From a virus, in IMG/VR virus record IMGVR_UViG_3300037502_002729, positions 1 through 64,000 of that record: a stretch of DNA of 64,000 nt. One strand, 5' to 3'. The notes under the pieces were generated by a model. That model searched no databases, was not told the origin of the DNA, and saw nothing but the letters and a program-made list of their open reading frames with translations. Shown piece by piece: positions 40,311 to 59,734 of this stretch. A program made the translations under genes and the position numbers. How positions within the stretch are numbered: the stretch's first letter is position 1; each line of letters begins with the position of its first letter.

Positions 40311-40350
40311 AAAAGGTTGGTGATAAGCCAACCTTTTCTTTTTTTTTAAC
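40311..40350 (+). terminator. Terminator after the virion-protein block
   Basis: AAAAGGTTGG and CCAACCTTTT form the stem around TGATAAG, followed by a long T run. Between 40244 and 40310 no gene is seen. Confidence 0.85.
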
Positions 40351-41014
40351 CCTTCTTTGACATAATAACTTTATCAATTATTCCATAAGCCAAAGATTCA
40401 TTTGCATCTAGCCATAAATCCCTACTAGCATCAGTTTTAACAACTTCTGGATCTTTTCCACAATATTGACCTAGCAAGGTGAACAAAATATCATTTGTTT
40501 TTTGCCATTCTTTCATTGTGATTTCAGCATCTTGAATATTCCCAACAGCACCCCCAGAACTCTGGTGTAACATTGTTTTGGAAAACCGCAAGGAACTTCT
40601 CTTTCCTTTTGTTCCAGCACCAAGCAATATTGAACCCATTGATGCAGCCATTCCTGTGTTCACTGTGGCCACATCACACTTAATGTAGTCCATAACATCA
40701 ACAATTGATAAACCTGCCTTCACAGAGCCACCAGGGCTATCTATATGCAATGTTACATCAGATGAATCAGATGAATCCAAGAACATAAGTTGAGCCTGGA
40801 TTATGGTGGACATTCTATCTTCAACTGGACCTGCCACCCATATTAACCTATCTCTCATCAATCTTGAGAAGATATCAATTTGTGTTGCCCTCATTTCCCT
40901 TTCTTCAAGGATATAAGGTGTCATAGATGCAGATACATTTTTTTCAAAATAATCCAAATGGGATGATGGTTTTCCCAAGTGATCCACATAATAAGATTTA
41001 AATTCATTCTTCAT
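40346..41014 (-). CDS. clpP: ClpP protease subunit
   Basis: 222 residues. Catalytic S125 is in GMAASMGSIL, H150 in TMLHQSSGG, and the Asp is D199 in ASRDLWLD. LHIDSPGGSV is the substrate-strand signature. An N-terminal extension of about 30 residues may be a propeptide. It forms barrel peptidases that need an AAA+ partner; the ClpC-like ATPase at 51368 is the obvious candidate. The phage also carries tmRNA, whose tagged products are classic Clp substrates. Confidence 0.95.
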   Translation of the reverse strand: MKNEFKSYYVDHLGKPSSHLDYFEKNVSASMTPYILEEREMRATQIDIFSRLMRDRLIWVAGPVEDRMSTIIQAQLMFLDSSDSSDVTLHIDSPGGSVKAGLSIVDVMDYIKCDVATVNTGMAASMGSILLGAGTKGKRSSLRFSKTMLHQSSGGAVGNIQDAEITMKEWQKTNDILFTLLGQYCGKDPEVVKTDASRDLWLDANESLAYGIIDKVIMSKKG

Positions 41015-41048
41015 ATTATCCTTTTTTCAAAATATAATAAAAAATAAA

Positions 41049-41537
41049 TTAATAAGCAAATGATGATTTATAATCTTCCCATATTTTTATAATGGATGAA
41101 TCATTTGATAGAAATGATGGTGTTCTTGGTGTAAACCTTAAAGGCATTTTGGCTTCATCTGGTGTTTTATCCCCCTTCTTTAGGTTACAAGGTAAACAGC
41201 AAGTTATTAAATTATTCCAAGAATTTTTACCCCCTCTTGATTTTGGAATTATATGGTCAATTGTTAATTCTTTTTTTGACCCGCAATAAGCACATTCATT
41301 ATTATCTCTTTTATATATACGTTGTCTATTAACTCTTAAATTCTTCATCTTATGTGAGATATATTTAAGAAGCCGGATTATCAATGGTTTTTCATAATGA
41401 GTTGTTTCTGTTCTTATAACTTCAAAACCATTCTTTATAATTTCAGCTTTTCCCTTAATCACCAATATAATAGCTCTTTTTAGTGTTGTAATATTAAGTG
41501 GTGTATAATCTGAATTTAGAACAAGTATTGTTTCCAT
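41049..41537 (-). CDS. HNH endonuclease
   Basis: 162 residues. CAYCGSKKELTIDHIIPKSRGG, then NNLITCCLPCNLKKG, forms an HNH fold with two CxxC zinc knuckles and the catalytic D-H at ITIDHI. The N-terminal LNSDYTPLNI segment is the usual extension in the stand-alone HNH family. It may be a homing-type or DNA-processing nuclease. Upstream of ClpP in the same direction. Confidence 0.92.
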   Translation of the reverse strand: METILVLNSDYTPLNITTLKRAIILVIKGKAEIIKNGFEVIRTETTHYEKPLIIRLLKYISHKMKNLRVNRQRIYKRDNNECAYCGSKKELTIDHIIPKSRGGKNSWNNLITCCLPCNLKKGDKTPDEAKMPLRFTPRTPSFLSNDSSIIKIWEDYKSSFAY

Positions 41538-41564
41538 ATTTTTTTATTAAAAATATAATAAAAT

Positions 41565-41603
41565 AAAAAAAGGGTTGCAAGTATTTTGGCAACCCTTTTT
41601 TAA
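41565..41603. terminator. Terminator hairpin
   Basis: AAAAAAGGGTTGC pairs with GCAACCCTTTTTT around AAGTATTTTG. On the minus strand it closes the 27-residue frame upstream of the HNH gene. A and T runs on both sides suit either direction. Confidence 0.8.
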
Positions 41604-41687
41604 TTATAAGTTTATGGCTTGAAGCCGTGTTTGCAATTTCAACATCCGATTTTCTCCAAAAAGACATAACATGTTTGATATTTTCAT
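41604..41687 (-). CDS. Possible 27-aa mini-protein
   Basis: A minus-strand ATG at 41687 gives MKISNMLCLFGENRML followed by KLQTRLQAINL. The leader upstream (TATTTATTAAATATAAC) has the phage box form, and a terminator follows the stop directly. A promoter-frame-terminator layout for so short a frame is suggestive, but there is no homology evidence. Confidence 0.4.
   Translation of the reverse strand: MKISNMLCLFGENRMLKLQTRLQAINL
41642..41671. repeat. 30-bp intergenic element, copy 2
   Basis: 25 of 30 bases match 20306-20335 (shared ATCCGATTTT and AGAC-TAACA). It lies inside the possible 27-residue frame, on the opposite strand. Confidence 0.35.
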
Positions 41688-41765
41688 ATTATATATTGTT
41701 ATATTTAATAAATATTTGTTTATAAAAAAGTGTGTATTAATTTGGATATAAAAAAAATATAATTA

Positions 41766-41773
41766 TATTTATA
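41766..41773 (+). promoter_or_regulatory. TATTTATA box before thioredoxin
   Basis: An exact TATTTATA ends 11 nt before the ATG at 41785. Confidence 0.55.
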
Positions 41774-41784
41774 CTAAAAAAAAT

Positions 41785-42108
41785 ATGGAACTTACAAAAG
41801 AACAACTAGTAGAAAAAATAAATGCTGGTGAAAAAATGGTTGTGGACTTCTATTCAAATAATTGTGGTCCTTGTAGAATTTTAAAACCTATGTTTGAGCA
41901 TTTGGCAAACAAATTAAAAAATAATAATTCTGATGTTTCATTATACACATTTAATATCCAGACTGATGTTAATTATGCTGTTAATGAAGTTGGAGTTAGG
42001 GGTGTCCCAACAATAAAGAGTTACTTGGAAGCAAAGGAAAAAGAAACAATTGTTGGATTGCCAAGTATGTTTGAATTAGAAGGGTTAGTTACTGCATTAA
42101 ATGGATAA
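41785..42108 (+). CDS. Thioredoxin
   Basis: 107 residues. The redox motif CGPC is in VVDFYSNNCGPCRILKPMF, and the cis-Pro is in GVRGVPTIKSY. A complete thioredoxin fold of standard length. It reduces disulfides in the cytoplasm, for example those of a ribonucleotide reductase. Preceded by its own TATTTATA box. Confidence 0.95.
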   Translation: MELTKEQLVEKINAGEKMVVDFYSNNCGPCRILKPMFEHLANKLKNNNSDVSLYTFNIQTDVNYAVNEVGVRGVPTIKSYLEAKEKETIVGLPSMFELEGLVTALNG

Positions 42109-42114
42109 TAAGTA

Positions 42115-42122
42115 TATTTATA
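42115..42122 (+). promoter_or_regulatory. TATTTATA box before 42139 gene
   Basis: An exact TATTTATA ends 16 nt before the ATG. Confidence 0.5.
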
Positions 42123-42138
42123 TATAAATATATAGAAT

Positions 42139-43044
42139 ATGCTACGTATAAGTGAAAATGAAAAAAAATATATAAGGTCTTTATACTATACTAAAAATAT
42201 AAATGAGCAAGGCTCTGCTGATTCACCTAGGTCTTTTATGAATCCTACTCAATATTCTAGGTATAATGAAAAAGAGGCAAAAGAATTAATAGACACATAT
42301 AATAATGTTATTACTAGATATGATGTTAGTACATCAAATGGTATTCATAACTTATTAAGTGATGCACAACTTACAGCAGCATTTGCAACTGGTGGTGTTG
42401 CTGATAATTATATTGGTTTATTACATTCACTTTATTGGTTTTATGAGGGTTTAAATTTACCTGAAAATGATGAGAATAGGACTAAAAAATTTATACTTGG
42501 TGTTATTGAATTAGTATTGGCTGTGCCAGGTTTTGCTGAATTAACGCCAGTTGCAAAATGGAAAGATACTATAGTGAATCAACCAGTTGTTCATTCAATA
42601 GATAAAATTAATAATATATTTACTCCATTTTGGAGGAAAATAGAAGATTATTTTAAAACTATTAATAAATCATTAAATGATATGCTTGTTTTCTTTTTAG
42701 AAATAAATTTTGATTTATTGGCAAATATATGCAAATTTCTTTTAGATAAATTTGATGCTATAAATTCTTGGTTTTTTAAAATGGTTGAATATATGAAAAC
42801 ATTAGGGGGTGGTGTTTTGAAAAAAGTTGAATCTAGTGCAAATGTTTATGTTACTGGTCAAAATGCTGAAAACTTAAAAAGTGGTGTAGAAACAATCCTA
42901 ACAAGTCCTAATCCAAAAGTACAAACTAATCCAAATGTGTATTCCCTATCAAATATACCAATGAATGCACAAGATTCAACAGATCCTGCACAATACCAAC
43001 CAAAACAGAACCCTACTCCGCAAAAAATCACCAAAAAATTCTAA
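42139..43044 (+). CDS. Leader-bearing phage protein
   Basis: 301 residues. The leader LRISENEKKYIRSLYYTKNI ends NEQ, like the other 'I-x-E...LY..N-E' leaders. The middle has NGIHNLLSDAQLTAAFATGG and FILGVIELVLAVPGFAELTP, a moderately hydrophobic helix. The C-terminus is Gln/Asn/Pro-rich and probably disordered. Probable virion or packaged protein; function unknown. Confidence 0.75.
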   Translation: MLRISENEKKYIRSLYYTKNINEQGSADSPRSFMNPTQYSRYNEKEAKELIDTYNNVITRYDVSTSNGIHNLLSDAQLTAAFATGGVADNYIGLLHSLYWFYEGLNLPENDENRTKKFILGVIELVLAVPGFAELTPVAKWKDTIVNQPVVHSIDKINNIFTPFWRKIEDYFKTINKSLNDMLVFFLEINFDLLANICKFLLDKFDAINSWFFKMVEYMKTLGGGVLKKVESSANVYVTGQNAENLKSGVETILTSPNPKVQTNPNVYSLSNIPMNAQDSTDPAQYQPKQNPTPQKITKKF

Positions 43045-43097
43045 TCATTATTTGAATGGTGCTTAATTTTTACTATTTTTAAAAAAAAACTAAAAAT

Positions 43098-43811
43098 ATG
43101 ACAGACAACAAGGCAATTTTGATTGGACACTATGGTGGAGATAATACACATAGTTTGGCAGCATGGAGTTCAACTTTCTTAGATTTGGAAATACCTATGC
43201 CAGAGAATATAGATGAAAGGGTTGATGCAATTGTTGACTATATTGTGAACAATTCAAAGAAGATTAGGAATGTGGAACAATTATTGCTTTATTTGGGACA
43301 AGAAGGGCATAATTCGCCTTTTAGGTTTAGCGCCTTACACTTTGTCACAACAACAGAAATAGCCACTCATATTCAATTTTTAAAGCATTCTGTGGCATTA
43401 TTAGCAGAGAATGCAGAATCAGCAAGATATAAGGAATTAAAAGAAGATAAATTCTATTTGCCAAAAGATTGGCTTGAGTTTGGAGAAAAAGGTAAATTTT
43501 GGTATGATACATTAAATGCTCAAAGTGAGAAATTGAATAAAATGTATCATAATTGTTTTAAAGATTTGGTTGAAGCAGGAGTGCCAAAAGCAAGAGCAAA
43601 GGAATCTGCTAGATTTTTCAAGATGTATAACTCACAGCTAAATAGTAATAAGTTCCTATCATTTGATGGGTTTGTCCAAATCTACAAGAAAAGATGTTTG
43701 GAATCACCATCACAATATGAGATTGGTAATGTTGTTGAACAAATGCTTAATCAGATTAAAGAAATACCTGGAAACCCATTTAAATATTCATTAAAAGCAT
43801 TTGGCTTATAA
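43098..43811 (+). CDS. thyX: Flavin-dependent thymidylate synthase (divergent)
   Basis: 237 residues. GQEGHNSPFRFSALHF fits the FAD-contacting H-x-S-P-F segment. The signature region is KHSVALLAENAESARY at 96-111, where typical ThyX has RHR-x7-S. The arginines are partly replaced (K96, S98), and the spacing is about two residues longer, as in some phage members. It makes dTMP from dUMP. Separated from neighbours by a terminator. Confidence 0.82.
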   Translation: MTDNKAILIGHYGGDNTHSLAAWSSTFLDLEIPMPENIDERVDAIVDYIVNNSKKIRNVEQLLLYLGQEGHNSPFRFSALHFVTTTEIATHIQFLKHSVALLAENAESARYKELKEDKFYLPKDWLEFGEKGKFWYDTLNAQSEKLNKMYHNCFKDLVEAGVPKARAKESARFFKMYNSQLNSNKFLSFDGFVQIYKKRCLESPSQYEIGNVVEQMLNQIKEIPGNPFKYSLKAFGL

Positions 43812-43813
43812 AA

Positions 43814-43846
43814 AAAAGGGCTTATATCACTATAAGCCCTTTTCTA
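43814..43846. terminator. Terminator after thyX
   Basis: AAAGGGCTTATA and TATAAGCCCTTT flank TCAC. A and T runs serve both the thyX gene and the convergent holin gene. Confidence 0.85.
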
Positions 43847-43861
43847 TTTTGGCAAATTTGA

Positions 43862-44083
43862 TTATTTACCTTTTTTTGCAACTTTTGGAGTTTCAACTGG
43901 TGTTTCAGTAGGTGTAATAACTGGGGTTTTTGAGATAAAAGACCACACAGCACCAATTAATGTAGAAAGACCACCAATGATTTCAGTTACAACTGTTTCA
44001 TCAACAAGGCCTTTTGTAACTAGAATACCACCAAAGAATGTAAGTAAATGTCTAACAACTCCTAGAATCTGTTCTTTAGTCAT
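43862..44083 (-). CDS. Holin-like small membrane protein
   Basis: 73 residues from the ATG at 44083 (MTKEQILGVVRHLLTFFGG). The frame opens further up only through a TTG. Two membrane segments (VVRHLLTFFGGILVTKGLV and IIGGLSTLIGAVWSFI) are joined by a short acidic turn, then a Pro/Thr-rich basic tail. This matches small class II holin-like phage proteins, which would let the endolysins reach the wall. Confidence 0.75.
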   Translation of the reverse strand: MTKEQILGVVRHLLTFFGGILVTKGLVDETVVTEIIGGLSTLIGAVWSFISKTPVITPTETPVETPKVAKKGK

Positions 44084-44160
44084 TTGTTTTTTTTTTAAAA
44101 AAATGTTTAGATATAACAATATTGTTATATTTATAAATATATAAAAAATTGTAAAAATTT

Positions 44161-45738
44161 ATGAATAGTTTTAATTTATTTAGATTAGATGAGGGTGCAG
44201 CTAGGAAACCAAAATATATTTCAGAAAATGAATTCCAATTTGTTTATGATTGTATTAAGGGAAAATATAAGAGTATTGTAAGTGAGGCAGATAAAGATAA
44301 ATTGCGGGACAAAATATTAAGTTATTTGACTGTAGAAACTACTTTTGAGGAAAATGTTAATTATGGTAATTGTGAAGCTGCTATGGCATATATTAAAAAA
44401 TTAAAAAAAGATAATCCTAATAGTGAAGATTTATCAAAAGTTCAATTATTTTGTAGTACAGTACCAAAATTTATGAATGAATGGATTCAAAAAATATTTG
44501 ACAATATTGTACAAGAAAAAAACTACCTTCTTCGTAAAAATTTCATTTCATTACATATAGATATTTTTATTGATTTTTTTACAAATAGGGAAAGCGCAGA
44601 TATTGTTAAAAAAACACCAAAAAGTTCACTTTATGATAGTTTGGTTGTATTGTATGATTCAAAATTTGATAAAAAAAATAGTTTAATCTCATTTGAATTT
44701 AATAATGAAACTAAAAATTTTATATTTAAATTATTAAAAATTTATTTAGGTATTAACCAAAAAAATCAACCTAAAAGTAAAACTTATGGGCATAATGATT
44801 GTAGAAGGTTAGATACAACAATTAGAAAACTTTTATGTGCAATAACTCATAGTAGACGGTCCCCAGATTATTTTAAATTTGAAAGAGGGTTTGAACATTC
44901 AAATCAATTTAAACCATTTAAAGGTGGTATTGCTTATAATATATCCACAATTGATGATTTAAATGCTGCTGGACAAATTGAAAAATATAGTGATGAAAAA
45001 GAAGAATCTATTACTCAACAAAAAGTATATGTTGGATATATTAATTTATTAAAAATAATGTTAGCAAGTGATAGTATTAAAGAATTATATAAAAATTGCC
45101 ATCAAGAAAATGAAAACTATACTAATTGCAAAGTTAATAATTCAAAGGTTAAAGAAGAAGTTAGAGAAATTTTTAATAATACAGTTTTTTTACAAATAAT
45201 TAATAATGAAAAAATGACAAAAGGTGATGTAATGGTGACTAATCCTGTTTCTTTATGTAGAAATTATGAAGAAAATGTTTTAGTTAAAGATGATATTTTA
45301 GAATTAAAATACTTCACCATAAAGGATATTGTAGATAAAGATTATATTGTTCATATAACAAGAATATTAGAACCAGATTTTAAAAAAATATATGCCAATA
45401 TTGATTATAATACTTTTATTAAAAATAATGGAGGTGATTCTAATTTTTTTATTAAATTTTTTAAAGAATTAATCTCTACTATAATAGAGATTTCCCAAGA
45501 AAAAATTGAAAAAGATTTTGAACAAATTAAAAATACATTTTCAAACTTAAATGGTTTAATAATTGCAGGACCAAAGTATGTTAAAAATGAAAATTGGAGA
45601 ATTTTTATAGATAGGGGTACTGGTAAACAAAGAGGTATTGGTGTGGCTATTAATGTAGAGTTACCACCAGATTTTGCAACTAAAGCAAGAGATATTTATT
45701 ATGTTAAATCAAGGAATCTTTTCTGTTTCAAAAACTAA
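44161..45738 (+). CDS. Leader-bearing hypothetical protein
   Basis: 525 residues. The leader NSFNLFRLDEGAARKP has L-D-E before G, resembling a cleavable targeting sequence. The rest is helical and Lys/Asn-rich with some Cys (YGNCEAAM, CSTVPK, NCHQEN, NYTNCKV). No catalytic motif seen. The upstream leader holds TATTTATAAATATAT. Confidence 0.72.
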   Translation: MNSFNLFRLDEGAARKPKYISENEFQFVYDCIKGKYKSIVSEADKDKLRDKILSYLTVETTFEENVNYGNCEAAMAYIKKLKKDNPNSEDLSKVQLFCSTVPKFMNEWIQKIFDNIVQEKNYLLRKNFISLHIDIFIDFFTNRESADIVKKTPKSSLYDSLVVLYDSKFDKKNSLISFEFNNETKNFIFKLLKIYLGINQKNQPKSKTYGHNDCRRLDTTIRKLLCAITHSRRSPDYFKFERGFEHSNQFKPFKGGIAYNISTIDDLNAAGQIEKYSDEKEESITQQKVYVGYINLLKIMLASDSIKELYKNCHQENENYTNCKVNNSKVKEEVREIFNNTVFLQIINNEKMTKGDVMVTNPVSLCRNYEENVLVKDDILELKYFTIKDIVDKDYIVHITRILEPDFKKIYANIDYNTFIKNNGGDSNFFIKFFKELISTIIEISQEKIEKDFEQIKNTFSNLNGLIIAGPKYVKNENWRIFIDRGTGKQRGIGVAINVELPPDFATKARDIYYVKSRNLFCFKN

Positions 45739-45968
45739 TTATTCTTTTTTGCATTAAAAACTTCTGCAAACTTTTCACTTGCAACAAAACCTAATCCAGC
45801 AATTGCCAACCAAACCAAACCTTCAAAAACATAGTTAGTTATTGTAAAATCTGAAAATAAATCAACAATTGATGCAAATATGATTGTCATTGATGCTGAA
45901 ATACCTATTGATCTTTTACTTGAAATTTCCCCATTTGCTGTCAATAATGATTTAAAAAACTTTTTCAT
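45735..45968 (-). CDS. Small two-helix membrane protein
   Basis: 77 residues with two membrane helices (about 23-42 and 48-63) and a basic N-terminus and tail. Adjacent to, and overlapping the stop of, the M23 peptidase gene (ATGA). A second holin or antiholin candidate within the lysis block. Confidence 0.7.
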   Translation of the reverse strand: MKKFFKSLLTANGEISSKRSIGISASMTIIFASIVDLFSDFTITNYVFEGLVWLAIAGLGFVASEKFAEVFNAKKNN

Positions 45969-47131
45969 TTCATAATACTAATTATTCTATTTATTTCAGT
46001 TATTAGTTGTTTTGATATAATCTTATTTTCAAATTTATAAGGTTCAGTAAATGATTTTGATATATTTGACAATGAAAAATCATAAGGTTGATTTAATGAA
46101 TTTGTAATATTTGATGATGAGAAATCATAAGGGCTAACAAATGACTTTGTTTGTGATGTGGTTGGAAAAGTATATCCTGTATCAACATCATCATTTTTAG
46201 AGAATTTATATGGTTCTGATTGTTTTTTTTGTTTTTCTTTTAGTTTTATTTTAGATGTTAGCCCTAAAGTAACTGTTACATCAATATATGAATTTTCTTG
46301 TGAAAAACTAGCAATTAAGTCTCCTAATACTGCATTTTTTTTATTAAAGTTTATATCTTCTGAGCATATTTTTACTATATAATTTTTTGAATTATGAGAA
46401 ACTGATATTTTATGGCAATTACTAGATGATGTGTTATTTACCTTACATGTTTTGAATTTACAATAAAATTTTGTAGCATCAGGGTTATACATGTAATCAC
46501 TACTAAAATTATCTTCACTAGAATTAAATGAATTTTGAATAATACTACCTATTTCTGTTAAACTATAATTTGGTTTGTCCTTTACTGATTCAACAGTTAT
46601 ATTATTTTTTGTATTTTTTCCACTAAAATCATATGAATCATCTTTTAGTTTTTGACTAAAATCATATGAATCATATTTAACTATAGGTTCATTATTAACA
46701 TCTTTTGGTATTAGTTGCCCACTTATCACATCTTCAGGATTCAAAAATTCCCCCCTTCTAATTACTTCAAAATGTAGATGAGCACCAGTTGTATGACCTT
46801 TACCAGGGTCATTTTGATCACCCCCACTTAATCCAATAAGTTGACCAACTTTAACAACATCTTTAGGCTTAACTAACACTTTTCTCAAATGACAATATTT
46901 TGTAACAATATCATCATTATGTTTTATCTTAATGAATCCACCACAAGTACTCCTATTTGGATCACTATCTATAACAACCCCATCTGCTGGGGCAAAAACT
47001 TCAGTTCCAGATTTAACACCAATGTCTAAACCTTTGTGTTTTTTATTACCCCTAACTGCATTAAATTTAGAGGTTATTAGACTTTTTTGATAGTTCTTTA
47101 TTGGTGGATATAGAATATTTTCAATCAACAT
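45965..47131 (-). CDS. M23 peptidoglycan endopeptidase with C-terminal repeats
   Basis: 388 residues. Lysostaphin-type zinc site: H32-x3-D36 (KHKGLDIG) and H-x-H in GAHLHFEV. The rest of the fold is present at residues 25-135. The C-terminal ~250 residues carry short repeats such as [EQ]-PYDFS, SYDFS and PYKFS spaced through Asn/Ser-rich linker. The C-terminus KQLITEINRIISIMK contains an I-T-E like that in the leaders. There is no signal peptide. May be a virion-associated lysin at the tail or head (inference). Confidence 0.9.
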   Translation of the reverse strand: MLIENILYPPIKNYQKSLITSKFNAVRGNKKHKGLDIGVKSGTEVFAPADGVVIDSDPNRSTCGGFIKIKHNDDIVTKYCHLRKVLVKPKDVVKVGQLIGLSGGDQNDPGKGHTTGAHLHFEVIRRGEFLNPEDVISGQLIPKDVNNEPIVKYDSYDFSQKLKDDSYDFSGKNTKNNITVESVKDKPNYSLTEIGSIIQNSFNSSEDNFSSDYMYNPDATKFYCKFKTCKVNNTSSSNCHKISVSHNSKNYIVKICSEDINFNKKNAVLGDLIASFSQENSYIDVTVTLGLTSKIKLKEKQKKQSEPYKFSKNDDVDTGYTFPTTSQTKSFVSPYDFSSSNITNSLNQPYDFSLSNISKSFTEPYKFENKIISKQLITEINRIISIMK

Positions 47132-47148
47132 AATTTATATATTTTATA

Positions 47149-47156
47149 TATAAATA
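47149..47156 (-). promoter_or_regulatory. TATTTATA box before M23 gene
   Basis: An exact minus-strand TATTTATA ends 17 nt before the ATG at 47131. Confidence 0.5.
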
Positions 47157-47166
47157 TAGTAAATGA

Positions 47167-47772
47167 TTAAACTATTTTTTTAACATCAATCAAATCACAT
47201 AATTTTTTTTGGTATTCATCAATATTTCTACTTTCTTTTAATTGTTTTAGTAATTTTAAGTCCTTATTTATTATGTGTTGATTTTCATTTATTATCTTCT
47301 TAACATAATGGACATATGTTTTATTTTCAGCATATATTCTATACAAGAAATCAAAATAATCATCCCTTGACTTTTCTTTATTTCTAAATAAAAATTCTTG
47401 AAATAATTTATAATCTTTAACACTATCTATCCAGCAATTATAAGTTGAATAATTTTTATTAACCCCTACTGCAACAGTTGGTCTTCTTTCAGGGTAACGC
47501 ATACCAAATAGATTGTTGTTTTCAACAAAAATTTGACTAGACATATATCCACTTTCTAATATTGCTTGGGCAAAAACAATGTCTGGATATTTTATATTAT
47601 TTTCAAGAATTTCAAAATATAGAAAAACTAATTCAACATTATTTTCCTCCATTAATTTTGCTTCATCTATTTTCAAAGAGGGAATTTTATTTTGTTGAGG
47701 TTTAAAACCTACTACTTGCCCAAATAAGCAAATATTTCCAATTACACATATTGTGTATAATATTTTTTTCAT
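47167..47772 (-). CDS. Exported glucosaminidase-like hydrolase
   Basis: 201 residues. Signal peptide MKKILYTICVIGNICLFGQV. The GH73-type catalytic Glu is in IVFAQAILESGYMSSQIF, followed by ENNNLFGMRYP and CWIDSVKDYKLFQEFLF. It cuts GlcNAc-MurNAc bonds. It carries a signal peptide, unlike the other lysins here, so it would act from the periplasm without a holin. Confidence 0.9.
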   Translation of the reverse strand: MKKILYTICVIGNICLFGQVVGFKPQQNKIPSLKIDEAKLMEENNVELVFLYFEILENNIKYPDIVFAQAILESGYMSSQIFVENNNLFGMRYPERRPTVAVGVNKNYSTYNCWIDSVKDYKLFQEFLFRNKEKSRDDYFDFLYRIYAENKTYVHYVKKIINENQHIINKDLKLLKQLKESRNIDEYQKKLCDLIDVKKIV

Positions 47773-47806
47773 AAAATTATTTTTAAAGTTTTATATAATA
47801 AAATAG

Positions 47807-47830
47807 AAGAGTCATATAATATGACTCTTC
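47807..47830 (-). terminator. Terminator directly after tmRNA
   Basis: GAAGAGTCAT pairs with ATGACTCTTC, and a T-rich stretch follows on the minus strand. It begins four bases after the tmRNA CCA end, as in independent tmRNA genes. Confidence 0.85.
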
Positions 47831-47833
47831 ATT

Positions 47834-48255
47834 TGGTGGAGACGCAGGGAATTGAACCCTGGTCTTGCTCGTAATTAAGTAAATAGACTACATGTTTATT
47901 CCATAGATTCTGTATGGACACATAAGACAGTTCATATTTTGCCATTTGATCTGCCAACTGTGGAGGGTTCACTTCTGCTATTTGCATAGACTAACAGGTA
48001 GCACCCCTAACCAAAACCTTTGACACAATAAGTAGTATCACACTATGAGGCTTCTGTTCCTAGGTTATATGCCCACCGACCTGGGGTTGTTATGACTACT
48101 AAGCCGCAACAACAGCATCTTCACGTACAAGACCTAAAGTTGCTAAAGTTTCTAAAGTGTTGCCATTTAAAGGCTTGAACCAGTTGTTAATGAGGTTAAT
48201 TCAGCCCCAACATGCCTACTTACACAATCCACGCCAATCGATACCTTTCGTCCCC
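47834..48255 (-). ncRNA. ssrA: tmRNA (ssrA), phage-encoded
   Basis: A 422-nt RNA gene fills a coding-free stretch. The acceptor strands GGGGACG and CGTCTCC pair over seven bases, with one G-U. The 3' end CCACCA is encoded, and the T-arm reads CAGGG-TTCAATT-CCCTG. The D-like loop has GGTATCGATTGG, the tmRNA 'TCGA' signature. A reading frame near 48078-48141 ends GCGGCTTAGTAG: reading GNTLETLATLGLV then REDAVVAA before tandem stops. The resume codon is unclear; an Ala (GCA) start giving ATLGLVREDAVVAA is also possible. The tag ends VVAA rather than the usual ALAA. It would rescue stalled ribosomes and tag peptides for Clp. Positions 48256-48397 hold only the promoter region of the downstream plus gene. 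Confidence 0.93.
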
Positions 48256-48397
48256 TTGTCTTTGTATAAATACCTCACTTGTTTTGAGAATACAAATATA
48301 CATCCCTTTTTTTGATTTTCCAAATGTTTTTATATAAATTTTATTAGAAGTTTACAAAAATTATTTTTATATTTGCATTTAATAAAAACAAAAAACT

Positions 48398-49258
48398 ATG
48401 TTAGTAGCACATATGCCAATTCCAAAATCAAATCTTATTGATTCTATATTTTCTTTATTGAAAAAAAATAATGGGAAATTTAAATCAGAGAAACAATCTA
48501 ATTTTTTAATAACTCAATTAAAAATGCATAATGGGTTTTTAGGTTATGTTAATAATGGCAAAATAAAAAATCCTATATTTGTTGAATATGATAAATATGG
48601 TATTACAAAACTATTAAAGAAATTAACTGGTTCAAATATGATTGAAATTATTTTTGAGAGGAATGCACAAAGTGAATTACATCCTAAAGATGTTATAATG
48701 CTAAAAAAAATTGAATCAATTTTGATTGAGCAACAACCAAAAGAAACTATTACAAATAAAAAACAATATAGGTTATCAACATATGAACTTGCAAAAAATG
48801 TATATAGTTTAGCAAAAAACAATAATGGACTTTTTAAGTCAGAGGCACAAGGAAATTTCTTGATTGAACAACTAAATTTATCTGATGGATATTTGGGTCA
48901 AACAAATGGGATTAAGTATAAAAACCCAATTTTTGCAGAATACAATAAGGAGGGTATTACAAAGATATATAAACAAATGGCTGCTTCAACTAAGGTTGAA
49001 ATAATTTTTGAGAGAAAAGTTGAAGGTGAGTTGACATCTCTTGAGGTTAAAGCCCTAGCTTCTTATAAAAGGAAATTGAAAAAACTTGAAAAGGAATTGA
49101 AGGAAAGAATGACATCTTTTTTGACTGGGGATTTCAATAGTAGTGGGGATCCTTCAACATATACAGAAGATATCATTGAAATGTATAATAGGGATAATGA
49201 TGTGAAAATAAAAGCCATTGAACATATTAAAAGTGAGATTGCCAAACTTGAAAAATAG
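48398..49258 (+). CDS. Internally duplicated hypothetical protein
   Basis: 286 residues. Two homologous halves, about 10-95 and 128-210: LLKKNNGKFKSEKQSNFLI matches LAKNNNGLFKSEAQGNFLI, then NPIFVEYDKYGITK matches NPIFAEYNKEGITK, and both end EIIFER. The C-terminus is a coiled coil with a short Ser/Gly insert. A small ligand-binding or scaffold fold is possible; no family recognised. Confidence 0.8.
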   Translation: MLVAHMPIPKSNLIDSIFSLLKKNNGKFKSEKQSNFLITQLKMHNGFLGYVNNGKIKNPIFVEYDKYGITKLLKKLTGSNMIEIIFERNAQSELHPKDVIMLKKIESILIEQQPKETITNKKQYRLSTYELAKNVYSLAKNNNGLFKSEAQGNFLIEQLNLSDGYLGQTNGIKYKNPIFAEYNKEGITKIYKQMAASTKVEIIFERKVEGELTSLEVKALASYKRKLKKLEKELKERMTSFLTGDFNSSGDPSTYTEDIIEMYNRDNDVKIKAIEHIKSEIAKLEK

Positions 49259-49268
49259 TTTGGTTGTA

Positions 49269-49276
49269 TATTTATA
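49269..49276 (+). promoter_or_regulatory. TATTTATA box before LRR genes
   Basis: An exact TATTTATA ends 18 nt before the ATG at 49295. Confidence 0.5.
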
Positions 49277-49294
49277 ATTGAAATTAACTATGCA

Positions 49295-49699
49295 ATGGAA
49301 AAAGAAAAACTAAAAAAAATATTTGAATTCATTGAAGAGAAGGAAGGGCATAAATTTCCAATTATATGGAAATTAATTAATAATATCCCATTTACAAAAG
49401 AAGAATTAAATATTGAAGGTGATTTGGATTTATCATACACTACTAAAATAACCTCTTTACCCCAAGGCTTGAGAATTGAAGGTGATTTTTATATTGATTA
49501 TTCATATGTTGAACTACCAAAAGGATTAGAAGTTGGTGGTGATGTGTATGTAACAGGCACATACTTGGAGGATTACACAAAGGAACAGGTAATGACAATG
49601 ATTTATCCTGGTTTTATAAAAGGTGATTTAATTTATAATATGGGTGATTCTTATGAGAATGATGGGGATGAGGATGAAAATGATGATGGGTTTCTATAA
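49295..49699 (+). CDS. Phage LRR-cassette protein 6
   Basis: 134 residues. The same N-cap (MEKEKLKKIFEFIEEKEGHK) as the array at 14.4-17.1 kb, then about two repeats (SLPQGLRIEGDFYIDYSYV, then LPKGLEVGGDVYVTGTYL), C-cap YPGFIKGDL, and an added acidic tail. First of three plus-strand paralogs about 33 kb from the main array. Confidence 0.85.
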   Translation: MEKEKLKKIFEFIEEKEGHKFPIIWKLINNIPFTKEELNIEGDLDLSYTTKITSLPQGLRIEGDFYIDYSYVELPKGLEVGGDVYVTGTYLEDYTKEQVMTMIYPGFIKGDLIYNMGDSYENDGDEDENDDGFL

Positions 49700-49711
49700 A
49701 TTAAAAATACA

Positions 49712-50089
49712 ATGAAAAAAGAACAATTAAAAAGAATATTTGAATTCATTGAAGAGAAGGAAGGGCATAATGTACCATTTTTATGGAAATTTAAAAATAA
49801 TATACCATTAACAGAAAAAGATTTGAATGTTAATGGTGATTTGAATTTATCTGATTCAAAAATAAAATCATTACCAGAAGGTTTAAAAGTTGGTGGTGAT
49901 TTGTATTTAGATGGTTCATATGTGGAATCATTACCAAAAGGATTAGAGGTTTATGGAGATTTATATATAGCAGATACAGTCTTAGCCTCTAAATCTAATG
50001 ATGATTTAATAGTAATGATAAAACCTGGATTTATAAAAGGAGAAATAATAAATAATGAAGAAGAATATGATGAAGGATATGATGATTGA
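49712..50089 (+). CDS. Phage LRR-cassette protein 7
   Basis: 125 residues. N-cap MKKEQLKRIFEFIEEKEGHN, about three repeats (SLPEGLKVGGDLYLDGSYVE and others), C-cap MIKPGFIKGEI, acidic Tyr-rich tail. Same layout as its neighbour, separated by 12 bases. Confidence 0.85.
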   Translation: MKKEQLKRIFEFIEEKEGHNVPFLWKFKNNIPLTEKDLNVNGDLNLSDSKIKSLPEGLKVGGDLYLDGSYVESLPKGLEVYGDLYIADTVLASKSNDDLIVMIKPGFIKGEIINNEEEYDEGYDD

Positions 50090-50106
50090 TTTAAATTAAA
50101 AATAAA

Positions 50107-50517
50107 ATGGAAAAAGAACAATTAAAAAGAATATTTGAATTCCTTGAAGAGAAGGATAACAAGAGAGTACCCCTAACATGGAAATTAATCAATGATTTTG
50201 ATTCAATAGATGATAAAGATTTATTTTATGATGATAATTTTGATTTATATGGTGCAAGAGTAAAAAGATTACCAGACAATTTTACTGTTAAAGGATATCT
50301 TGATTTAAGATTGACAAAAATAAAAACTCTCCCAGATAATTTAACTGTTGATGGTGATTTATACCTAACGGCTTTAGAAATAGATTCAGTTCCAAAAAAT
50401 CTAAAAGCACACTCAATGTTTGCAAAATACACAACTCTATCTGAAAAATATTCATACAAAGAAATTAAGGATATGATAAAAGAAAAGGGTGGTGAAGTTA
50501 AGTTTTTAACAATTTAA
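50107..50517 (+). CDS. Phage LRR-cassette protein 8 (divergent)
   Basis: 136 residues. N-cap MEKEQLKRIFEFLEEKDNKR is conserved, but the repeats read LPDNFTVKGYLDLRLTKIKT and LPDNLTVDGDLYLTALEID, so the G-L position has become D-N. The C-cap has lost the PGFIKG motif (MIKEKGGEVKFLTI). The most diverged of the eight. Confidence 0.8.
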   Translation: MEKEQLKRIFEFLEEKDNKRVPLTWKLINDFDSIDDKDLFYDDNFDLYGARVKRLPDNFTVKGYLDLRLTKIKTLPDNLTVDGDLYLTALEIDSVPKNLKAHSMFAKYTTLSEKYSYKEIKDMIKEKGGEVKFLTI

Positions 50518-50524
50518 TTACCTA

Positions 50525-50532
50525 TATTTATA
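50525..50532 (+). promoter_or_regulatory. TATTTATA box before M20-like peptidase
   Basis: An exact TATTTATA ends 10 nt before the ATG at 50543. Confidence 0.55.
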
Positions 50533-50542
50533 GAAAAAAAAT

Positions 50543-51355
50543 ATGAACAAAGAATTATTAAAAGAAGTGTTATCAATTCCATCATATAGTGGCAGGGAAC
50601 TAAAATTAGTTAATTACATATGTGAATTTCTAAAAAAGAATAATATACCATATGAGGTAGATGAGATGCTCAACATATATTGCACAAAGGGTGAAACAGA
50701 AACCTATCCTTGTGTTGTAGCACACACAGATACAGTCCACAACAACACTTATATAGATGTTAGAACTGAACTAAGGGAAAATTCAAAAGGTGTCTTAAAA
50801 GAGGCTTATAAGGGTTATAATAAGATTGGGCAACCAACTGGAGTTGGGGGTGATGATAAAGCTGGTGTTTTTGCCTGTTTGACTTTATTGACAGAATTAC
50901 CAGTTTTAAAGGCTGCTTTTTTTGTATCAGAAGAAATTGGGTGCATTGGTTCATTGGCAGCAGATCCAGAATTTTTCAAAAATGTTGGCTATGCCATACA
51001 GTTTGATGCTCCATTTGATTGGATGGTGACTGAAATTTCATCTGGTGTTCCTTTATTTAATAGGGATAGTGAGTTCTTCAATAAGATTAATAGTGTATTA
51101 GTAGAGAATATAGCCCCCAAGTATGGTTCACATCCTTATACAGATGTATATGCTTTAAAGAAGTTATTTGATTTTAGTTGTCTTAACATATCTATTGGGT
51201 ATTATGATTATCATACACCAGATGAGTATGTTGTTTTAGAAGATGTGGAGAATGGAATTAAAATAGGAAGGGAAATGATTGCAAGTTTAGGTTATAAAAA
51301 ATATGAAAAGAAACATATACCAGTTATAAGGCCTTTTTTAAGGGAAAAGGGATAA
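50543..51355 (+). CDS. M20/M28-type metallopeptidase (aminopeptidase-like)
   Basis: 270 residues. Two-zinc motif: H61-x-D63 (CVVAHTDTVH), GGDDKAGVFA, EE-x2 in VSEEIGCIGS, FDAPFDW, and the C-terminal His in YHTPDEYV. It has the catalytic domain without an obvious dimerisation domain, which is short for M20. It could trim peptides released by Clp (inference). Next to the clp gene, convergent with it across a shared terminator. Confidence 0.88.
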   Translation: MNKELLKEVLSIPSYSGRELKLVNYICEFLKKNNIPYEVDEMLNIYCTKGETETYPCVVAHTDTVHNNTYIDVRTELRENSKGVLKEAYKGYNKIGQPTGVGGDDKAGVFACLTLLTELPVLKAAFFVSEEIGCIGSLAADPEFFKNVGYAIQFDAPFDWMVTEISSGVPLFNRDSEFFNKINSVLVENIAPKYGSHPYTDVYALKKLFDFSCLNISIGYYDYHTPDEYVVLEDVENGIKIGREMIASLGYKKYEKKHIPVIRPFLREKG

Positions 51356-51360
51356 AAAGG

Positions 51361-51387
51361 AAGGGGGTCAATTGACCCCCTTTTTAA
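51361..51387. terminator. Bidirectional terminator, M20-like gene and clpC-like gene
   Basis: AAGGGGGTCAATTGACCCCC is a perfect palindrome followed by TTTTT. It overlaps the last codons of the minus-strand clp gene. Confidence 0.88.
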
Positions 51388-53380
51388 TTATAACATTTTC
51401 ATCTTCAACAACCAAATTGTAAGGTTCATTTTCTTTAATGAAGCCATTTAAAACCTCATCAGATATTAAATCCTCAATCTTATCTTGGATTGCTCTCTTA
51501 ATTGGCCTTGCACCATAAGTTTCATCAAATCCAACTTTGCTAATTAAATCAATAATAGATGAATCAAAGGAAACAATGTAATTAGATTCTGTTAATCTTG
51601 TAATTAGTTTGTTAAGTTCAATTTCAGTTATCTTTTTAACATTCTCATCATTCAATGTATTGAATACAATGGTATCATCAATACGGTTCAAGAATTCAGG
51701 TGAAAAGAACTTTTTCAATTCTTTCATTAGCATTTCTTTTTTAGCAACTTCATTGCCATATTTGGATGATGTGAAACTAATTCCAGTTCCAAAGTCTTGG
51801 AATTTTTTAATACCCAAGTTTGTTGTTAAAATGATGATTGTATTTTTGAAATTAATAGTTTTACCTAAACTATCTGTTAGATGACCTTCATCCAATATCT
51901 GCAATAACAAATTAAAAACATCCTTGTGGGCTTTTTCAATCTCATCAAATAAGATAATTGAATATGGGTTATTCTTAACTTTTTCAGTTAGTTGACCACC
52001 TTCATCATGACCAACATAGCCTGGAGGTGAACCTATTAATCTTGATATGGTGTGTTTTTCTTGGTATTCACTCATATCAACCCTAATCAATGATTTCTCA
52101 TTTCCAAATAATTGTTTGGCTAATTGCTTTGCTAAATGTGTTTTACCAACTCCTGTGGATCCTAAGAATATGAAACTACCTACTGGTCTATTTGGGTCTT
52201 TAATGTTAAGCCTATTTCTTTTAATAGACCTTGTAATAGATTCAACAGCAGCATCTTGACCAATAAGGTTTTCTTTAATTTTCTTATCTAAATTTATTAA
52301 TTTTTGTTTTTCATCTATGTTCATTTGTTCTAGTGGAATATTTGTCATAATAGAAACCACAGAATAAACATCCTCAATATCAATCTTTCTCTTATTCTTT
52401 AAATTATTTTCTTCAAACTTTTTTGTTTCAGAATCAAGTTTTGTCAATAACTTCAATTCTTTATCTCTAATTTCAGCAGCCAATTCATATTCTTGGTTGA
52501 TAACAACTCTTGTTTTTTCTTTCTTCAAATCATTAATCTTTTCTTTTAATATTTGAATTGATTCTGGTATCTTGACATCAACTTGGAGTTTTGCACCAAC
52601 TTCATCAATAATATCAAAAGCCTTATCAGGGAATGCTCTATCATTAATATATCTATCAGCCATCTTAACACATAATTCTATAACATCATCACTATATGAT
52701 GCCTTATGGAAGGATTCATATTTGTCAATAGATTGTTTAACAATTTTTATTGTTTCACTTATTGAAGGTTGTTCAAGTTTGATTTTTTGAAATCTTCTTG
52801 CTAATGCACCATCTTTTTCTATTGATTTTTTGAATTCATCAAATGTGGTTGCACCAATACATTGAATTTCCCCAGATGCCAATGCTGGTTTAAATATGTT
52901 TGCACCATCCATAGCATTAGATGAATTACCAGATCCAATTAATGTGTGTATTTCATCAATGAATATAATAACATTTGGGTTTGCAATTAACTCATCAAGA
53001 ATTACCTTCATCCTTTCCTCAAACTGACCCCTATATTTGGTACCAGCAACAACAGATGTTAAATCTAAATTTACAATTCTTTTGTTTAGTAGATTTTGAG
53101 GTCCTTCACCTTTTGAAATCATTAAGGCAACGCCCTCAATCAAGTTTGTTTTACCACAACCAGCATCACCAAGAATTAATGGATTGTTTTTCTTGCGTCT
53201 TGATAAGACTTGAGCCAATCTCTTAACTTCTTTTTCCCTACCAATTGACATATCTAGTTTCCCCATTTCAGCCAATTTGGTTAAATCTCTACTAAAATTG
53301 TCCAATACTGGAGTTTTTGAACCAGAGGTGTTTTTCTTACCTCTTGTTGTTTTTTCATCATCAAAATAGTCAACATTCAT
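51368..53380 (-). CDS. ClpC-like AAA+ unfoldase lacking the N-domain
   Basis: 670 residues, two AAA+ modules. Walker A1 GDAGCGKT at 71-78, Walker B1 IIFIDE at about 138-143, a ClpC-type middle domain about 270-335 (NQEYELAAEIRDKEL, UVR-like), Walker A2 GSTGVGKT at 407-414, and Walker B2 ILFDEIEKA at 476-484. The Clp_N repeat domain is absent; the protein starts with a ~25-residue linker. The ClpP-docking region reads DFGTGISF (about 529-536), where ClpC has VGF. Probable partner of the phage ClpP. Confidence 0.93.
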   Translation of the reverse strand: MNVDYFDDEKTTRGKKNTSGSKTPVLDNFSRDLTKLAEMGKLDMSIGREKEVKRLAQVLSRRKKNNPLILGDAGCGKTNLIEGVALMISKGEGPQNLLNKRIVNLDLTSVVAGTKYRGQFEERMKVILDELIANPNVIIFIDEIHTLIGSGNSSNAMDGANIFKPALASGEIQCIGATTFDEFKKSIEKDGALARRFQKIKLEQPSISETIKIVKQSIDKYESFHKASYSDDVIELCVKMADRYINDRAFPDKAFDIIDEVGAKLQVDVKIPESIQILKEKINDLKKEKTRVVINQEYELAAEIRDKELKLLTKLDSETKKFEENNLKNKRKIDIEDVYSVVSIMTNIPLEQMNIDEKQKLINLDKKIKENLIGQDAAVESITRSIKRNRLNIKDPNRPVGSFIFLGSTGVGKTHLAKQLAKQLFGNEKSLIRVDMSEYQEKHTISRLIGSPPGYVGHDEGGQLTEKVKNNPYSIILFDEIEKAHKDVFNLLLQILDEGHLTDSLGKTINFKNTIIILTTNLGIKKFQDFGTGISFTSSKYGNEVAKKEMLMKELKKFFSPEFLNRIDDTIVFNTLNDENVKKITEIELNKLITRLTESNYIVSFDSSIIDLISKVGFDETYGARPIKRAIQDKIEDLISDEVLNGFIKENEPYNLVVEDENVIIKKGVN

Positions 53381-53395
53381 ATCTTATGTTTTTTT

Positions 53396-53403
53396 TATAA
53401 ATA
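53396..53403 (-). promoter_or_regulatory. TATTTATA box before clpC-like gene
   Basis: An exact minus-strand TATTTATA ends 15 nt before the ATG at 53380. Confidence 0.55.
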
Positions 53404-53434
53404 TCATACAAATTTTGGACTAATCCAATAGTTT

Positions 53435-53447
53435 TGACAAATTGTCA
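53435..53447. promoter_or_regulatory. Operator-like palindrome 1
   Basis: TGACAAATTGTCA is a perfect 13-bp inverted repeat (TGACA / TGTCA), centre 53441, within the clp-hsp20 divergent promoter. Confidence 0.6.
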
Positions 53448-53465
53448 GGAAAATAATATATTATA

Positions 53466-53478
53466 TGACATTTTGGCA
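53466..53478. promoter_or_regulatory. Operator-like palindrome 2
   Basis: TGACATTTTGGCA differs from a perfect TGACA/TGTCA palindrome at one position. Its centre is 53472, exactly 31 bp from site 1. Confidence 0.55.
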
Positions 53479-53496
53479 TATAATGACACCTATAAC

Positions 53497-53509
53497 TGAC
53501 GTTTTGTCA
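53497..53509. promoter_or_regulatory. Operator-like palindrome 3
   Basis: TGACGTTTTGTCA (TGAC/GTCA perfect, one outer mismatch) is centred at 53503, exactly 31 bp from site 2. A further right-half TTTGGCA lies at 53521-53527. Confidence 0.55.
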
Positions 53510-53579
53510 TATAAAAATAATTTGGCATTAAATTTGACTTCCTCATAAAAAAAATAAACAATTATAAAAAAACAAAATT

Positions 53580-54011
53580 ATGAAAAACAAAGATTATTTA
53601 GCAGAGTTATTATTTGGATCATTTAGTCCATTTATTATTTCATCAAACTCACCTTACAACCCTTTTAGTTCATTAGACCAAAACATTTCATCACAATCAA
53701 CCCAAAGTCATAGTATTTTTGGTGATGAGTATGATATTGAAACAACAAAAGATGGGGCATATGTTTCCTTTGAAGTTCCAGGTTATACAAAAGACAATTT
53801 AGAAATTGTTTTAGAAAACAAGGAAATAAATATAATTGGAAAAAGGACATATAACAAGAAGGGGGATACCAAAACAATAAAACACAGGTTTAAGTTGGGT
53901 AATTACCAAATTAATGAGGCTAACATTGAGGCAACAGTTTCAAATGGAATTTTAACATTATTTTTACCAAATTATGTTGAAACAGGTAAAAAAACAATAT
54001 CCATTTCATAA
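53580..54011 (+). CDS. Hsp20 / alpha-crystallin small heat-shock protein
   Basis: 143 residues. The alpha-crystallin domain spans about 50-140: VSFEVPGYTKDNLEIVLENK, then IEATVSNGILTLFLP with the conserved A-x-x-x-n-G-[VI]-L. The N-terminus is Ser/Pro-rich and disordered. It holds unfolding proteins. Divergent from the ClpC-like gene, with three palindromes between them. Some large phages carry hsp20. Confidence 0.95.
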   Translation: MKNKDYLAELLFGSFSPFIISSNSPYNPFSSLDQNISSQSTQSHSIFGDEYDIETTKDGAYVSFEVPGYTKDNLEIVLENKEINIIGKRTYNKKGDTKTIKHRFKLGNYQINEANIEATVSNGILTLFLPNYVETGKKTISIS

Positions 54012-55852: not shown

Positions 55853-57151
55853 ATGAGTAGATTAAAACCAATAGGTAGTGAAAAACTACAAGGTGATGCA
55901 AAGTTAAATAGAATGTTAGAGATTGCTATGTACAAGGAAGTTGATAAAGAAAATATCAATGAAACTAGTTCAAAAGAATATGACATTCAATTGATGGATG
56001 GTAATATATATGCAGTTGTCAAGGAAAAATTGGGCTATATAATTAAAAAAGGCATAAATGAATCTTCATTAGATTATATTGACCCAATTAGGAATAGAAA
56101 ATATTATAGATCATATTCTCAAGCATTTAAAAAATTAAATTTAATAACAAAAGAACTAAATGAGTTATATGATAACCCAAATGGTATATCATTGTTTGGT
56201 GAGCAAAAGAAATTTACATTAAAAACGCCAAAACCAGCTCAACCAGATAATGAAATGGGTGATATGCCTGCACCACCACCAGAACCACCTGCTGTGCCAA
56301 GTCCAGAATTACCCCCATCCCCATTGGAAGGTGGTGAAGGTCAAATGCCACCACCTGCTGAACCAGGTATGGAAGGTGAAATGCCAGATATGGAAGGTAT
56401 GGATGATGAAATGCCAGATATGGAAGGTATAGATGGTGATATGCCAGATATGGAAGATGAACCAATAGATTCAAAACAAGACAAGGGTGATGAGGAAGTT
56501 ACATTTAAAACAATCCAAAAACTAACAGGAAGATTAACACAAAAGATTAGAACTTTGGAAAATGAGGAAGGTTTAACATCTGAAGAAGTTAAGTATGTTA
56601 TTAATATGGTTATATCCTCATTAAATATTGACATTCTTGATGAAGAAGATATTGATGATATTATTTCAAAATTTGAAGGAGGTGGAGAAGAAGGTGATAT
56701 GGATAATGAATTACCTGATATGGAAGGGATAGATGACACAGAGGGAATGCCTGATATTGAGGGTATGGATGATATGGGTGGTGAAATGCCAGATATGGAA
56801 GGTATGCCTGATATGGAAGGAATGCCACAACAAGGGGGTGAAGAATATACACCAAAAAAGAGGTATAGTGAGTCTAAGATTGATAATATTATTTCAAAAT
56901 ATTTTGAATTAAGCCCTCAAGAAAAATTAATATCTGAACAAAAGAAAAGAAAATTAGAAAAATCATTAAATGAAAATTTAAAATCAATTAAAATTTTATC
57001 TGAAACAGAAAAACAATATTCTGCTGCAAATAATTTCTTAAATAAGTTTAAAAGATTTGAAGTTATAGGTAAGACTAACTTGGGTAATATTATGTTGAAA
57101 CTAAATGAAAACACTATAAAAATAACAAAAAAAGGACAAATCATAAAATGA
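55853..57151 (+). CDS. Probable head core/scaffold protein with acidic repeats
   Basis: 432 residues. The N-terminal 125 residues (KLNRMLEIAMYKEVDKENIN, then IYAVVKEKLGYIIKKGI) form a globular domain. A middle tract (130-205 and 275-325) is Pro-, Asp- and Met-rich with repeats such as MPDMEGMDDE. The C-terminus is Lys-rich and helical (EKQYSAANNFLNKFKRFEVIG). Position before terminase and portal, acidic low-complexity and helical tail suggest a scaffold or core. Overlaps the next gene by four bases. Confidence 0.75.
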   Translation: MSRLKPIGSEKLQGDAKLNRMLEIAMYKEVDKENINETSSKEYDIQLMDGNIYAVVKEKLGYIIKKGINESSLDYIDPIRNRKYYRSYSQAFKKLNLITKELNELYDNPNGISLFGEQKKFTLKTPKPAQPDNEMGDMPAPPPEPPAVPSPELPPSPLEGGEGQMPPPAEPGMEGEMPDMEGMDDEMPDMEGIDGDMPDMEDEPIDSKQDKGDEEVTFKTIQKLTGRLTQKIRTLENEEGLTSEEVKYVINMVISSLNIDILDEEDIDDIISKFEGGGEEGDMDNELPDMEGIDDTEGMPDIEGMDDMGGEMPDMEGMPDMEGMPQQGGEEYTPKKRYSESKIDNIISKYFELSPQEKLISEQKKRKLEKSLNENLKSIKILSETEKQYSAANNFLNKFKRFEVIGKTNLGNIMLKLNENTIKITKKGQIIK

Positions 57152-59655: not shown

Positions 59656-59669
59656 TAAAAAAAATATTT

Positions 59670-59706
59670 AAAACCCCAATCTTTAATTAGGTTGGGGTTT
59701 TTTTAT
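59670..59706 (+). terminator. Terminator before terL
   Basis: AAACCCCAAT pairs with GTTGGGGTTT, followed by TTTT. It ends the scaffold block transcript. Confidence 0.85.
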
Positions 59707-59714
59707 TTTGTGTG

Positions 59715-59722
59715 TATTTATA
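59715..59722 (+). promoter_or_regulatory. TATTTATA box before terL
   Basis: An exact TATTTATA ends 12 nt before the ATG at 59735 and directly follows the terminator. Confidence 0.6.
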
Positions 59723-59734
59723 AAAAAAGAGAAT

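Follow-up and report, generated by a model that had tools for sequence, protein, structure and literature searches.

Genes for ribosome rescue and genes for Clp-type proteolysis have each been reported from phages with large genomes, apart from one another. Al-Shayeb et al. 2020 (PMC7162821) name the transfer-messenger RNA (tmRNA) and SmpB of huge phages as ribosome-rescue genes in a main-text passage that gives neither linkage nor tag length, and Clp proteases and chaperones are absent from their main text. Hudson et al. 2014 (PMC4131195) list phages with ssrA, the tmRNA gene, among them phage G and mycobacteriophages. The ClpP, ClpA/ClpX and Hsp20 of jumbo phages are discussed as assembly or host-directed functions by Iyer et al. 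2021 (PMC7824862), and members of these families also occur in phage Atu_ph07 (PMC6102473); neither text mentions SmpB, and the Atu_ph07 paper does not mention tmRNA. A paper on a marine methylophage (PMC9004378) speculates that this phage might use its tmRNA for tagging and destroying host proteins. Here we describe the first 64 kb (hereafter the window) of the virus record IMGVR_UViG_3300037502_002729, in which genes for a ClpC-like AAA+ unfoldase, a metallo-peptidase and a tmRNA with a long tag peptide form a module whose order and orientation are fixed among related giant phages. Among the main texts of open-access papers, we found none that joins tmRNA or SmpB with a Clp set or that describes this tag; the module as a linked unit, like its tag, appears to be new.

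The protein families in the window are those already known from jumbo phages, and a phage-borne tmRNA is shared with the huge phages of Al-Shayeb et al. and with LR745206, the closest named genome, which has both tmRNA and SmpB. It is likewise shared with the mycobacteriophages and with phage G, whose tag of 13 residues is not of the long conserved kind. Among bacterial systems, the phage set resembles ClpC–ClpP in having two AAA+ modules, a UVR motif and a ClpP-docking loop position (IGF in 77 relatives, ISF in the window clade), and resembles the ssrA of Bacteroidota in its GGC resume codon and in the GNT start seen in some host tags. It differs from both: the phage unfoldase has no N-domain, and the phage tag has 21–22 residues and a variable end rather than 9–10 residues ending in L/M-A-A.

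Linkage of the unfoldase, peptidase and tmRNA

The initial annotation of the window had listed a tmRNA, ClpP, a ClpC-like unfoldase, Hsp20, an M20-like peptidase and a thioredoxin, and had asked whether related phages keep this set together. All six are present at the coordinates given there, as judged with ARAGORN, Rfam, Pfam and fold comparison (Table 1). To describe their linkage, we surveyed 80 ClpC relatives of 66–97% identity, counting contigs with enough downstream sequence. The tmRNA lies 2.0–5.6 kb downstream of ClpC, always on the ClpC strand, in 52/52 contigs (24/24 clusters at ~95% identity), and the peptidase is near ClpC in all 61 of the contigs with room. The three elements keep a fixed order and orientation, and the genes that separate them vary. 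When the search was reversed, starting from tag DNA patterns and making no use of ClpC, ClpC was found upstream in 26 of 27 loci with room. Cohesion is thus a property of these three elements and not of the whole set: Hsp20 stands beside ClpC in 32 of 72 relatives, the thioredoxin is unlinked, and ClpP is present but 10–80 kb away, at varying distance. Between positions 39.5 and 54.5 kb, comparison with a 321-kb relative (IMGVR 3300032050_000001) shows that the named elements are conserved in 6/6 cases and the other open reading frames in 2/14 (Fisher p = 7e-4), although part of this synteny may be general genome collinearity, because the module borders a structural block (54.5–107 kb) that is itself collinear.

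Table 1. Features of the module and its surroundings, in window coordinates
Feature	Position	Strand	Evidence or remark
ClpP peptidase, 222 aa, triad intact	40346..41014	-	Pfam 2.2e-56; PDB 1y7o 1.8e-48
Thioredoxin, probably outside the module	41785..42108	+	Pfam 2.7e-16
tmRNA (ssrA), one-piece, complete, encoded 3' CCA	47834..48255	-	ARAGORN and Rfam RF00023
Acceptor stem, 3' strand CGTCTCC (U70 at 47840)	47838..47844	-	G3.U70 = alanine identity pair
Tag reading frame GNTLETLATLGLVREDAVVAA, two stop codons	48096..48164	-	Aligned tags pN/pS 0.55 (indicative); third codon positions vary most
Acceptor stem, 5' strand GGGGACG (G3 at 48253)	48249..48255	-	Sequence; pairs with 47838-47844
Metallo-peptidase of M20/M42 type, 270 aa, consisting of the catalytic domain	50543..51355	+	Weak Pfam; invariant ligands; fold
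ClpC-like unfoldase (670 aa) with two AAA+ modules and a UVR motif but lacking the N-domain	51368..53380	-	Pfam AAA_2 3e-68
ClpP-docking loop position, ISF in the window	51773..51781	-	IGF in 77 relatives
Small heat-shock protein Hsp20, an optional member, oriented divergently to the unfoldase	53580..54011	+	Pfam 1.4e-9
Terminase large subunit, conserved structural block	59708..61486	+	PHROG 2, 5.7e-36
Portal protein, conserved structural block	61498..63354	+	PHROG 213, 1.8e-65

The tmRNA and its tag

The window tmRNA matches the Rfam model over its full length (model positions 1–374, 86.5 bits), and ARAGORN gives identical ends. The G3.U70 pair is kept throughout the acceptor stems compared across relatives and pairs 4–7 show compensatory changes; three sequences, as cut by script, are mispaired at pairs 6–7, and some of their ends were perhaps miscalled. 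The resume-codon context in the phage tmRNAs is mostly AAN followed by GGC, in agreement with Bacteroidota. Judged by its sequence, the window tmRNA is a complete gene, whose product would be charged with alanine and would tag nascent chains. The tmRNA of LR745206 (204891-205273) is divergent, its T-loop being atypical and its tag 29 residues long, and was recognized by nhmmer (E 0.06) together with inspection; it falls below threshold in the Rfam search, is unseen by ARAGORN at default settings, and lies in a genome on which relaxed settings return hundreds of chance matches. With this gene in place, a description of LR745206 as having SmpB without tmRNA was rejected.

The tag encoded by 49 phage tmRNA sequences is 21 residues long in 40 and 22 in 9, and comprises 29 distinct peptides (for example GNTLETLATLGLVREDAVVAA in the window and GNTFAKMAALGLTREASVVAA in relatives). 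Across the 25 distinct 21-mers, G1, G11, L12, E15 and V19 never change and K6 almost never does; variation is greatest at the next-to-last residue, which can be A, G, T, V, K or E, and some phage tags end in VTI, VKA or VEA. Bacteroidota tags, which ARAGORN reports in 19 of the 20 Bacteroidota-type genomes searched, share their first residues with the phages in some cases, but all are 9–10 residues long and the last two alanines are invariant. Conservation in the phage tags therefore lies inside the peptide and variation at its end, the reverse of the bacterial pattern. The pN/pS ratio across aligned phage tags is ~0.55 and third codon positions are the most variable (p = 0.02 by column shuffling), figures that are indicative only because the sequences are related; they point to protein-level constraint on the tag frame.

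Long tags of a second kind, with 28–29 residues, occur in larger relatives (GKTNELGTSEDLVAALANILPVKEVAFA in a 597-kb record, GNTNEVGSVEDLVFALRNNILKANRLAVA in a 228-kb record), and the LR745206 tag (GNVNEVVTREDLVAALQNNMLLVEEPATV) belongs to this kind. A general statement that all phage tmRNAs have long tags is rejected by Lak-C1, with DDEIDFRMAA (10 aa), and by phage G, with AKLNITNNELQVA.

The unfoldase, ClpP and the remaining proteins

The unfoldase (PHROG 4871, 4e-230; PDB 6em9, 1.9e-205) has its Walker, pore and arginine motifs in place. Its best solved relative is the ClpC of S. aureus, to which residues 13–649 align at ClpC positions 150–787. The N-terminal adaptor-binding domain of ClpC was not found: the alignment begins at ClpC residue 150, and Clp_N is not among the families shown. 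For this reason we call the protein ClpC-like, and N-domain adaptors would not be usable as they are in ClpC; it is a reasonable guess that the long tag is read directly in the pore of this ATPase. The tripeptide of the ClpP-docking loop ([IVL]G[FL]) is VGF in LR745206 and LR756502, and with the IGF of 77 relatives this sequence supports a ClpP partner in the family. The window unfoldase has an unrelated VGF close to its C-terminal end, and only the IGF/ISF position counts. In IMGVR 3300042562_001598, a second, partial ClpC D2 fragment (213198-213668) lies near the full ClpC gene.

ClpP has the S14 fold with the catalytic triad Ser125/His150/Asp199 in place. It is present in 18 of the 20 records searched, including the 107-kb record to which the window belongs, a 200-kb record and most larger relatives, with one copy in each 270–330 kb relative searched. 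Head maturation as its main role was considered and rejected: the record encodes a T4-type head protease (phrog_207, 64619-65320 of the record, between the portal and capsid genes), ClpP lies ~24 kb from it, and the presence of this dedicated enzyme makes such a role for ClpP unnecessary. An HNH endonuclease gene (window 41049-41537) adjoins ClpP and is kept, at 58%, in the 321-kb relative.

The peptidase is weakly recognized by sequence, M42 being at the Pfam cut-off and M20 just under it. The metal-ligand positions H61, D63, D104, E130, E131, D155 and H224 are nevertheless invariant in 19 relatives, and an AlphaFold model, at a mean pLDDT of 90, matches the fold of M42/TET aminopeptidases and of PepT. 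On the strength of these ligands and the predicted fold we assign the protein to the M20/M42 type (clan MH); the matched enzymes are peptide-trimming ones, in keeping with the part of peptide trimmer in which the initial annotation had cast it. A second domain (lid, dimerisation or PDZ-like) was not found, 270 residues being too short for one, and the fold matches span it with long gaps. In the 321-kb relative, an HExxH-type metallopeptidase-like protein (L427 2852-3460) is encoded between ClpC and the M20/M42-type peptidase.

Hsp20 has a recognizable alpha-crystallin domain. The thioredoxin has matches of 37–43% in relatives, at unrelated places only, and for want of linkage it was dropped from the set.

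SmpB in the window phage and in its sister clade

SmpB, already noted as unseen in the window, was also not found when the whole 107,342-bp record was searched for it, nor in near-identical records of 200 and 270 kb, nor in the circularised 321-kb relative. Its absence from the window phage, whose genome is incomplete, is likely, and host SmpB would therefore have to serve. In a sister clade (ClpC 62–63%), smpB follows the tag by 0.8–2.6 kb in 8 of the 9 loci that carry this class of tag and extend far enough; IMGVR 3300042465_005589, for example, has the order ClpC (56857-58905), peptidase (58920-59741), tmRNA (61226-61622) and SmpB (62485-62922). In the relative 3300033995_001164 smpB is ~190 kb away, and SmpB is also encoded by the collection's Lak phages and by several of the Al-Shayeb phages. 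The window phage thus probably borrows host SmpB, which its sister phages need not do. The proposal that the window phage carries an almost self-contained route of trans-translation and degradation fails on this account, since SmpB is probably absent; it holds for the sister clade, where SmpB is encoded after the tmRNA.

Genome context and host

The 107-kb record is a piece of an incomplete giant-phage genome, and giant-phage relatives range from about 320 to 640 kb. The nearest named genomes are LR745206 and LR756502 (635 and 642 kb), the former having 53% identity to the window phage in ClpC and 60% in ClpP. Many relatives in IMG/VR are closer than these, several of them at 308–326 kb; one, the circularised IMGVR 3300032050_000001 of 321,283 bp, carries a direct terminal repeat of 56 bp and probably represents a complete genome. 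Beyond the portal gene, the record continues with genes for the head protease of T4 type, for a scaffold-like acidic protein and for the major head protein.

The host is probably a member of the Bacteroidota, as several lines of sequence evidence suggest. The best 80 bacterial ClpC matches are Bacteroidota by title, save for one unclassified 'uncultured bacterium'; in the 321-kb relative the tmRNA is immediately followed by a gene (126060-129335; L427 6060-9335) for an outer-membrane protein of 1091 aa that resembles TonB receptors; and the first tag residues are those common to some Bacteroidota tags.

Several other features were noted. About 18 tandem small leucine-rich-repeat-like paralogues, with the motif MEKEQLKRIFEFLEEKEGH...LPEGLKVGGDL...IKPGFIKGEI, form three clusters (window 49295-50517; record 65334-68353 and 74654-79774), two of them inside the structural block; the 321- and 318-kb relatives contain nothing that matches them, and the one copy scanned has no Pfam match. 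A phage-borne reprolysin-like M12 metallopeptidase of 606 aa is encoded at 18412-20232 of the window. Past the window, at 86144-98604 of the record, is a sugar-nucleotide/glycosyltransferase cluster (GDP-mannose dehydratase-like, DegT-like and several glycosyltransferases), called from sequence with the exception of one PHROG hit.

Discussion

The arrangement described here suggests that the phage may run its own trans-translation and disposal line, consisting of the tmRNA, the ClpC-like ATPase, ClpP and the peptidase, a proposal that we regard as evenly poised between right and wrong. Its basis is the intact genes, the fixed linkage, the conserved tag and the retention of the ClpP-docking motif in the family; charging, tagging, a ClpC–ClpP complex, recognition of the tag by the phage ATPase and a benefit to the phage are what we infer from them. 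In such a line, the host synthetase would charge the phage tmRNA with alanine, and host SmpB, or phage SmpB in the sister clade, would load onto it. The tmRNA would free ribosomes stalled on broken mRNAs, which are likely common while host DNA and RNA are dismantled, and would add a phage-specific tag of 21 residues. Tagged chains would then be unfolded by the N-domain-less ATPase and cut in phage ClpP, and the resulting peptides would be trimmed by the M20/M42-type peptidase. The gain to the phage would be free ribosomes, recycled amino acids under its own control and less reliance on host ClpX. A more specific form of the proposal, which we advance tentatively, is that the tag is an orthogonal degron: its inner stretch, G-N-T-F-A-K-M-A-x-L-G-L..E...V, would be read by phage ClpC working with phage ClpP, so that ribosome rescue in the infected cell would be uncoupled from host ClpX and would feed a phage protease instead.

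Several observations weigh against a disposal line of this kind. ClpP is not linked to the module: in three genomes the two are separated by ~10, 25 and 75 kb, and the distance differs from relative to relative. Host ClpX, too, could read the VVAA at the end of the window tag (PMC9601184). The docking loop of the window's own clade has ISF instead of IGF, a weak point, and the module adjoins the conserved structural block.

The distance of ClpP from the module and the di-alanine end of the window tag, an ending usually read by ClpX (PMC9601184), would both suit a role in rescue only. The phage tmRNA would then top up or replace host rescue during the destruction of host mRNA, host ClpXP would take the tagged chains, and phage ClpC and ClpP would do unrelated work; tmRNAs outside any such module do exist in phages, for example in Bacillus phage G. 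We consider this account doubtful, although worth keeping in view, as it is at odds with the linkage of tmRNA to ClpC in 52/52 contigs and in 26/27 loci of the reverse search, and with tags in which the inner residues are invariant and the next-to-last residue varies most, some of them ending in VTI, VKA or VEA.

That the unfoldase borders the terminase–portal–protease–capsid block, together with the assembly roles that Iyer et al. 2021 propose for phage Clp ATPases (PMC7824862), might instead indicate that the ClpC-like ATPase and ClpP remodel capsid or tail proteins, or remove host proteins, with the tmRNA a mere neighbour. This is improbable: the phage has a dedicated T4-type head protease, and tmRNA and smpB, neither of them known to act in assembly, stay by the unfoldase while other neighbours change.

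Still less probable is a tag that serves not as a degron but as a signal by which rescued chains are localised, stabilised or held, for instance on Hsp20 or on ClpC without ClpP. The length of the tag, twice that in bacteria, would fit such a signal, as would its conserved interior, its variable end and the ISF of the window clade; the occurrence of ClpP in every 270–330 kb relative checked and in most larger ones, and of the peptidase always near the ATPase, speaks against it. Finally, prophages often have ssrA as their attachment site, but no result obtained here suggests that the phage gene is left over from integration into the ssrA of a host, and this reading is refuted by the full-length gene, the compensatory pairs in its stem, the apparent protein-level selection on the tag and the fixed position of the gene across many giant phages.

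Phage tmRNAs have been known for years, although their purpose has been unclear, and the linkage to an unfoldase, a peptidase and, in the sister clade, SmpB makes the question testable. These giant phages may run a private disposal line in the infected cell. If the tag is indeed private, it would provide a ready-made orthogonal degradation signal, and it would be evidence that the takeover of the cell by giant phages extends beyond translation to protein quality control.

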